From Acidobacteriota bacterium (GTDB lineage: Bacteria > Acidobacteriota > Terriglobia > Terriglobales > Acidobacteriaceae): a stretch of 64,000 bases of DNA. How positions within the stretch are numbered: position 1 is the first letter of the stretch; every line of letters begins with the position of its first letter. The stretch lies in NCBI GenBank assembly GCA_021792795.1, contig JAJYUB010000011.1:1-64000 (forward strand). Reading direction: 5' to 3'. The notes beneath the pieces were generated by a model. It saw only the letters and a list, made by a program, of their open reading frames with translations. It was not told the origin of the DNA and searched no databases. A program made the translations under genes and the position numbers. Positions 23,671-25,291 of this stretch are shown piece by piece.

Positions 23671-23720
23671 TGAAAGATTGCGCTCTTTTTCTTCCATAAA
23701 CTTGAGAGGCGGTGGTTCCG

Positions 23721-24188
23721 GTGAGCTTGACGGACAAAGTGCAGCAGGACATGGTGGCGGCGATGAAGGCGCGCGAAGTGGATCGCCTTTCCACGCTTCG
23801 CATGATGAAATCTGCGCTTAAGAACAAAGAAATCGACAAGCGCGCTCCGCTCACCGATGCCGAAGCCGGGCAGGTGCTGGTCACCATGGTGAAACAGCGG
23901 AAAGATTCCATCGAGCAGTTCACCAAGGGCAATCGCATGGACCTGGTGGAGAAGGAAGCCGCCGAAATTCCGATTATTGAGAGCTATCTGCCCAAGTCCG
24001 CTTCATTAGAAGACATTCGCAGCACCGTCGAAGCGGCCATTGCAGAGATGTCCGCTGCCGGTTCACGGCCAACTCCACGAGACATGGGCAGCGTGATGAA
24101 GGCGGTGCAGGCGAAATTCCAGGCCGCCGGTTTGCGCGCCGACGGCAAACAGGTCAGCGAGCAAGTGAAGGCCGCGTTGGCCGGCTAG
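23721..24188 (+). CDS. GatB/YqeY domain protein
   Basis: A 155-residue helical protein of the YqeY family, which is homologous to the C-terminal tRNA-binding tail of the amidotransferase subunit GatB. Family hallmarks are LRMMKSALKNKEIDK near the N-terminus, IIESYLPKSAS in the middle and DMGSVMKAVQAKF followed by GKQVSEQVKAAL at the end. The GTG at 23721 fits GAGAGG eleven bases upstream; an in-frame GTG at 23712 would be too close to it. The role is thought to be tRNA-linked but is not established. It is divergent from the aminotransferase and followed by a repeat element. Confidence 0.9.
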   Translation: MSLTDKVQQDMVAAMKAREVDRLSTLRMMKSALKNKEIDKRAPLTDAEAGQVLVTMVKQRKDSIEQFTKGNRMDLVEKEAAEIPIIESYLPKSASLEDIRSTVEAAIAEMSAAGSRPTPRDMGSVMKAVQAKFQAAGLRADGKQVSEQVKAALAG

Positions 24189-24224
24189 AACGAGGCCGCG
24201 CCTTCACCTCACACAGAACAATCC

Positions 24225-24432
24225 AGTCTTCCTAATGTCCTGAGTCTAAATTCGTCCATGAAACGATTCTTGGACTTATTGTCCAGCCGGGCACTTCCTT
24301 TAACAGGGCAAGACTTCAGTCGTGCCGTAAATGGCGCAAAATAGATGGGCTTCAGCCCTTGAGTGCTGCTGTTCGAATCATTTCTATTCATCGAATTTTG
24401 AATGAACTTCGGACTCAGAACACTAGGACTTC
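24225..24432. mobile_element. MITE-like palindromic element with imperfect terminal inverted repeats
   Basis: About 208 bp with matching ends: 24225-24253 (containing CCTAATGTCCTGAGTC) and, inverted, 24404-24432 (read from the right, CCTAGTGTTCTGAGTC). The ends agree at roughly 80 percent of positions. Inside are a hairpin at 24307-24326 (GGCAAGAC / GTCGTGCC around TTCA, one mismatch), a GGGC-TTCA-GCCC hairpin at 24347-24358, and a TGGAC / GTCCA stem near 24271-24286. No coding capacity. The right end contributes the final codons and the stop of the RNase HI gene. It fits a non-autonomous element or a composite extragenic palindrome; no target duplication is evident. Confidence 0.7.
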
Positions 24433-25103
24433 CCCGCTCTTTGGCCCAACGCCTTTTCCGGCATCACTACCACGATGGTTCCCTCGGGAATCGATCCTTC
24501 CAGCAAGTTGATTCTTCCGTCTTTTACGATCCCGCGCAGGGGTCGCACCGGCGGCGCCTCTGCGGCAATCGGCGAGGCGGGCAAAGCGGATACACTCGCC
24601 TTCCCCTCCGGCTTACGCCGCATCCCCCGGTCCATCGCCTGGTTCGCCAGCTCATCGGCTTTCTTGTTCTTTCCCCGCAGCACATGTTCGATCTGGAACT
24701 CCTCCAGCTTGGCGATGCGGCGCTTGGCTTCCTCATACAGCGGCCGCAGGTCGGGACTTTGCACGCGGTACTGGCCGCGGATTTGCTTGACCATCAGCTC
24801 CGAATCGGAAACGACGCGTAAGCGCGAATGACCGTTTTCCAGCGCAAATTCCAGCGCCGCCAGCAAGCCCGAGTATTCCGCAACATTGTTCGTCCGCATT
24901 CCCAGAAATTCGCTAAGTTCTCCGAGAACAGATCCATCTTCCCCCAGAATCACCACCCCATAGCCGGAGGGGCCAGGATTGCCGCGCGATCCGCCATCGG
25001 TGTACGCAATGGCCCATTTCCGTGTAGCAGGCTTGCGGCATGAATCATTCTGAAAAAAAGAGGATTGGGTGTCGCCGGAGGATCGTTGGAAAGCAGGAGT
25101 CAT
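24423..25103 (-). CDS. RNase HI-family ribonuclease with C-terminal extension
   Basis: About 226 residues. The RNase H domain begins at AIAYTDGGSRGNPGPSGYGVV (first catalytic Asp in YTDGG), continues with the Glu in NVAEYSGLLAALEFAL, the Asp in RVVSDSELMVKQIRG, and DELANQAMD near its end. It degrades RNA in RNA-DNA hybrids; this short type resembles RnhA-like RNase H of Gram-positive and archaeal lineages. A 60-residue C-terminal piece (from about 165) has an AbrB-like look (GRINLLEGSIPEGTIVVVMPEKAL). The start at 25103 is tentative; the frame stays open to 25343. The stop codon lies in the end of a repeat element, so the original C-terminus may have been altered. Confidence 0.82.
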   Translation of the reverse strand: MTPAFQRSSGDTQSSFFQNDSCRKPATRKWAIAYTDGGSRGNPGPSGYGVVILGEDGSVLGELSEFLGMRTNNVAEYSGLLAALEFALENGHSRLRVVSDSELMVKQIRGQYRVQSPDLRPLYEEAKRRIAKLEEFQIEHVLRGKNKKADELANQAMDRGMRRKPEGKASVSALPASPIAAEAPPVRPLRGIVKDGRINLLEGSIPEGTIVVVMPEKALGQRAGKS

Positions 25104-25291
25104 GTGCCCAAGTCTAATGGATTCCTCCACAATCCGGTTCCTGAGCCACGACTTCGGCGGGCGAAGCCGCAGCAAAGAAAAAGAGAAGGAAGGTGGCCGT
25201 TTCATCCATGCCAAGCACCGGCCAGGTCCATAACGCTGGGTCGGCTCACGTTTGGCTATAAATATCGTCCAAATAAAAGGAGACATACCCG

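Follow-up and report, generated by a model that had tools for sequence, protein, structure and literature searches.

A palindromic element that overlaps the stop codon of an RNase HI gene raises two questions: where it came from, and whether its arrival changed the encoded protein. In the window (the whole 64,000-nt stretch of DNA that was analysed), an imperfect palindrome lies between convergent yqeY and RNase HI genes. The first-pass annotation described it as a MITE-like element of 208 bp and suggested that its arrival possibly altered the C-terminus of RNase HI. Our preferred reading, to which we assign a probability of about 90%, is that a non-autonomous IS630-type MITE of ~195 bp was moved here in trans, that the CTAG holding the stop codon was retained, and that the MITE carries a captured REP doublet.

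Extent, copies and transposase of the element

The features of the locus are as follows.

23712..24188, + strand: yqeY, the convergent neighbour (Pfam YqeY); stop within CTAG 24185-24188
24232..24426, no strand: whole MITE, 195 bp; limits from comparison with copies, terminal CTAG-type tetramers (left CTAA, right CTAG) counted in
24232..24246, + strand: left terminal inverted repeat, CTAATGTCCTGAGTC; 1 mismatch to the consensus
24300..24365 (approximate), + strand: putative REP doublet within the MITE (match comparison, REP profile)
24307..24326, + strand: hairpin 1, GGCAAGAC-TTCA-GTCGTGCC
24347..24358, + strand: hairpin 2, GGGC-TTCA-GCCC
24412..24426, - strand: right terminal inverted repeat, CTAGTGTTCTGAGTC (minus-strand reading); 1 mismatch to the consensus
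24423..24426, no strand: CTAG read as the target kept at the junction; 24423-24425 is the RNase HI TAG stop on the - strand; the same CCTAG occurs in genome G006
24423..25127 as analysed (open frame to 25343), - strand: RNase HI-type gene (Pfam RVT_3 and RNase_H, ORF)

The palindrome is borne out by arm complementarity, a shuffle test and RNA folding. The arms at 24230-24246 and 24412-24428 are 88% complementary over 17 nt, none of 1000 mononucleotide shuffles aligned as well as the 60-nt end arms, and the RNA fold of 24215-24442 reaches -66.1 kcal/mol (z = -2.78; 1 of 200 shuffles is as good). The TTCA-loop hairpins noticed earlier are also present, while the copies, on comparison, place the element's limits at 24232 and 24426 and so shorten it from 208 to 195 bp. 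It is short, lacks a transposase gene of its own and has 15-bp inverted ends close to CTAGTGTCCTGAGTC, with one mismatch each. Its description as MITE-like is upheld by dispersed copies, by their common 15-bp terminal inverted repeat and by an IS630 element with matching ends.

In the element's own genome (4.04 Mb, 133 contigs), a DNA search gave 20 matches at E ≤ 10, the element itself included and the weakest at chance level; the best two non-self matches are 88% identical over 95 bp and 82% over 108 bp. The second two-ended copy in this genome lies at C94:15528-15720. The 15-mer end occurs 10 times there with up to 2 mismatches, compared to 4 times for a reversed control, a count that is weak alone. 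Across 41 genomes, the 208-bp query matched 16 at E ≤ 0.001, comprising 16 of the 25 from the same family and 0 of the 16 from outside it. Genus mates G004 and G009 had 19 and 24 matches, many of them to the core alone, and 40 stretches around matches to this query were retrieved for comparison. Two-ended copies number 17 and measure 166 to 426 bp; genus mates have 15 of them and the own genome the other 2. The copies that the first-pass annotation had proposed to look for are therefore found, dispersed through the own genome and its genus mates. At one site, two species (L064 in G009 and L075 in G004) share the same flanks around one MITE copy, and this insertion therefore seems either to descend from a shared ancestor or to have travelled together with the flanking DNA.

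The ends match those of autonomous IS630 elements in two genomes, G003 and G036. In genus mate G003, a 362-aa transposase lies between CTAGTGTCCCGAGTC and GACTCAGGACACTAG (L121:910-2070); it scores 282.4 bits against the IS630 model NF033545 (cut-off 100) and 45.9 bits against the IS481 model, below the cut-off of 224 for that family. The G003 element abuts other element ends on both sides, and in a scan of 28 DDE_3 loci that allowed up to 3 mismatches, no other locus had such ends flanking the gene on both sides. Once L121 had been found, it replaced two earlier partner candidates, a frame near L004 resembling a transposase and a stretch near L009 resembling IS630. In G036, from another family of the same order, a transposase 62% identical to that of G003 has two perfect ends (L278:1498-2659), and in G002 one perfect end adjoins a transposase split over two frames. 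The remaining transposase homologues have diverged ends; among related IS630 elements, L279, L280 and L286 carry diverged ends of the type CTAGTGTAGTG that still begin with CTAG.

Homologues of the G003 transposase were found at E ≤ 1e-20 in 15 of 61 genomes, and none at that threshold in the own genome (98.2% complete as listed). A transposase with matching ends, sought as a second check on the first-pass annotation, is thus present in a genus mate, while the own genome has no close homologue. The MITE would at present be immobile. The own genome nevertheless has other IS630-type transposases, with 14 matches to the wider DDE_3 family, and mobilization by a more distantly related enzyme of this kind could still occur.

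These copies also bear on a different view, which we consider highly improbable: that the palindrome is not mobile and chiefly serves the two convergent genes as a transcription terminator or RNA element. Its position between convergent genes, its better folding than shuffled sequence and one weak terminator-like site (24280-24293, 0.2 expected) would suit such a role. However, the copies are dispersed with fixed ends, an IS630 element has matching ends, and the ends are absent at the same place in genus mates. Rfam at gathering thresholds found no match at the element and, in the whole window, only a tRNA elsewhere. A terminator role could nevertheless coexist with a mobile origin.

The RNase HI stop codon

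RNase HI orthologues are present in 14 of 16 genomes, including 8 of 9 genus mates. In G006, which is free of the element, the RNase HI C-terminus is identical (...EKALGQRAGKS) and the stop reads CCTAG; its gene ends AAA TCC TAG where the last codons here are AAG TCC, the same residues (Lys-Ser). The G008 gene ends in ...QRSAKP with CCCTAG, and the other six genus-mate genes have TAG, TGA or TAA stops in other contexts, with slightly varying C-termini. None of 17 other RNase HI loci, genus mates accounting for 8, has the MITE end sequence at up to 3 mismatches. Because G006 and G008 have CTAG stops and the ends are absent from all 17 loci, the RNase HI stop is, on this comparison of sequences, the old CTAG target, retained at insertion.

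The first-pass annotation had held that the right end of the element supplies the last codons and the TAG. The TAG does lie within the junction CTAG, whereas AAG TCC belongs to the host, as G006 indicates. That the insertion brought a new stop and altered the C-terminus is even less probable than a terminator. The TAG is within the element's terminal repeat and the C-termini of genus mates vary slightly, as such a change would have it, but the G008 gene ends in CCCTAG and element-free G006 has the identical C-terminus with a CCTAG stop, an outcome that by the first-pass annotation's own reasoning speaks against the change.

How the stop may have survived is suggested by the chemistry of IS630. 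In 1991 Tenzen and Ohtsubo reportedly described, to judge by their title, a preference of IS630 for the TA in CTAG. A CTAG target preference of IS630 is likewise given in PMC6811581, and ISY100 inserts almost solely at TA, duplicating it (PMC2170065). In the mechanism we propose, an IS630-family transposase would have acted in trans, in the past, on ends of the type CTAGTGTCCTGAGTC, pasting the element into the TA of CTAG with duplication of the TA. The element starts with G and ends with C, so that each junction would again read CTAG from outside. Where that CTAG contains the TAG stop of a gene, its rebuilding would preserve both the stop and the protein; the survival of the RNase HI stop would follow from TA insertion and CTAG preference, the duplication here being presumed. 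Read on the RNase HI strand, an unoccupied site is predicted to have CTAG and then GAAGACTGG. An empty site of this exact insertion was not found among relatives, and G006 differs downstream of the stop. Paired elements have CTAG at both ends in 32 of 49 cases, although many had been preselected for CTAG at one end and a TA duplication is here indistinguishable from a CTAG duplication.

Both convergent genes of this locus stop within CTAG (24185-24188 for yqeY and 24423-24426 for RNase HI), and the window as a whole has 21 CTAG sites, compared to about 235 expected from base composition. If our reading is correct, a mobile element can occupy the last codon of a gene and leave the protein unchanged, and a testable rule emerges: a CTAG target combined with a terminal G gives a stop-sparing insertion.

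The inner hairpins

In other genera of the family, the inner core of ~70 bp is also found on its own; for core matches outside the genus, the full MITE is mostly absent. The core consists of many-copy short palindromes with matches in 16 of 41 genomes. A profile built from 30 core copies matched 6 of 31 Y1_Tnp loci; in two of these, L313 and L318, the gene lies between inverted copies. As controls, the profile matched 1 of 18 RNase HI loci (the window itself, which is in the profile) and, weakly, 1 of 28 DDE_3 loci. The Y1_Tnp proteins of L318 and L310, the two tested, both exceed the NF047646 cut-off and are classed as REP-associated tyrosine transposases (RAYTs), so the core is associated with RAYT genes. 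Because its copies adjoin such genes and occur without the MITE, we read the inner core as a REP doublet carried in the IS630 MITE and separate from the MITE ends. REP elements are described as having a conserved tetranucleotide head, GTAG or CGTC (PMC3733652).

The MITE would have captured the doublet and then spread it within the genus, so that a single unit would combine two kinds of repeat, the IS630 MITE and the REP. In some copies of the genus (L066, L067, L068, L069 and L085), the first REP hairpin is duplicated within the MITE or further inserts are present. That a RAYT spread the whole unit, with the IS630-like ends incidental, is as improbable as an altered C-terminus: the core does occur alone across the family and beside RAYT genes in the own and related genomes, but two-ended copies are bounded by CTAG ends and not by REP, and elements with the same ends lack the REP core in other phyla.

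Stop codons at other junctions and known systems

We scanned a genome collection for the pattern of ends, which gave at least 118 stretches, and made 80 of them into loci, an arbitrary sample that by record titles includes Actinomycetota, Acidobacteria, Proteobacteria and others. A transposase lies between paired ends in 11 loci (12 pairs, since L159 has two possible right ends), and its best pieces share 58-67% identity with the G003 protein; another 23 loci carry a short pair (<500 bp), and in the other 46 no pair was found when up to 2 mismatches were allowed. The REP core occurs in 2 of the 80, both titled Acidobacteriaceae, and next to an element end in L224 only. The host of the window is itself presumably an acidobacterium.

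At unique outward CTAG ends of these loci, the junction TAG stops an ORF of at least 100 codons in 36 of 103 cases, compared to 14 and 8 in the other frames, while background CTAG site-ends give 76, 75 and 56 of 418 in the three frames (elements versus background, P = 4e-4; frame comparison on 104 element ends, P = 8e-7); ORFs are inflated in GC-rich genomes. Among the 36 stop-junction ORFs, none matched the G003 transposase at E ≤ 1e-3. We tested 10 of them, picked for their conserved look, against NCBIfam, and 9 matched at E ≤ 1e-10 (L165 had no match; L156 and L169 matched partially). A GyrB match reaches the last profile position, and matches of DnaB, GluQRS, thiolase and RimO/MiaB type end near it.

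We also rebuilt empty sites, with crude gene calls, for 26 of 34 paired loci (8 were left out for short flanks, and in 5 of those kept the CTAG is imperfect on one side). These fall at a stop in 14 cases, between genes in 7 and inside genes in 5, compared to 6, 19 and 30 for background CTAG (P = 7e-5; stop versus intergenic, P = 0.007). Two ORFs within the genus end at the junction: one for PEP carboxylase in G003, which matches its Pfam profile as far as position 919 of 919, and one of GNAT type in G005. Taken by itself, the genus set is weak: ORFs of at least 100 codons occur at 4 of 25 ends, the counts for the other frames being 1 and 0 (P = 0.04), and the four include an IS transposase that runs into a neighbouring element end.

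Among 20 plasmid records listed, 11 have a match to the whole IS, and 9 of these list features (two being one plasmid). A neighbouring gene extends under the IS match in 4 of the 9, although the plasmid gene table is incomplete. In the 8 records examined, these 4 and another 4 picked for listing a neighbour, the neighbouring gene stops exactly on the terminal CTAG in 7, the Pseudonocardia one reading 12 bp in, and the transposase CDS ends on the terminal TAG in all 8. The IS630 transposase stop is the element's terminal TAG in G003 (L121:2056-2070) and in IS records L306-L309 and L341-L344, so it depends on the target site.

The enrichment at stop codons may reflect mere purging of gene-internal insertions. 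The broader proposal, that TAG stops across phyla are safe harbours for a widespread subgroup of IS630 and for its MITEs, beyond purging alone, with the genus MITE also spreading REP doublets, is tentative, and we would rate it somewhat below even odds. If true, elements would accumulate at gene 3' ends, those of essential genes included, with CTAG targeting and the terminal G rebuilding stops on both sides. Should proper gene calls bear the enrichment out, these elements would mark gene ends that are intact.

Our literature search found no report of stop-sparing CTAG insertion for IS630, the key 1990-91 IS630 papers lying outside its scope. It also found none on Acidobacteria IS630 MITEs or on miniature inverted-repeat and REP sequences together with IS630, and, among the matches listed for the 11-mer TGTCCTGAGTC, none was about mobile elements by title. 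IS630-linked MITEs are themselves a known kind (PMC2229807). RUP of Streptococcus pneumoniae, linked to IS630-Spn1, is likewise short and non-coding, with IS630-like ends and a TA-containing target; it differs in its 107-bp length, and the available excerpt of that source mentions neither a REP doublet nor a stop-codon location (PMC2229807). With IS630 and ISY100, of the IS630/Tc1-mariner group, the element shares its transposase family (NF033545, DDE_3) and, on our reading, CTAG preference and TA insertion (PMC6811581, PMC2170065), whereas the window copy lacks a transposase and its TA duplication is presumed.

The doublet resembles REP elements with RAYT/TnpA-REP transposases in being short palindromes near RAYT genes, inverted on both sides at two loci. 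Unlike usual REPs, it is embedded in an IS630 MITE, and it is assigned by its palindromes and RAYT association, not by a GTAG or CGTC head. MITEPsy1 of Pseudomonas syringae is also a short MITE that inserts at CTAG or YTAA, but has IS5-family ISPsy2-like ends, a 4-nt duplication and known gene disruption (PMC3189936). Stop-sparing CTAG insertion has already been published for the IS481 family: in TnRErm46/ISRe46 and ISLxc2, the CTAG target gives the transposase's TAG stop (PMC6794481, PMC2516522), and with TnRErm46 it also gives that of some target genes, which are still functional (PMC6794481). These elements differ in their family, NCTAGN direct repeats and other inverted repeats (PMC6794481, PMC2516522), and TnRErm46 is a 6.9-kb transposon and not a MITE (PMC6794481).
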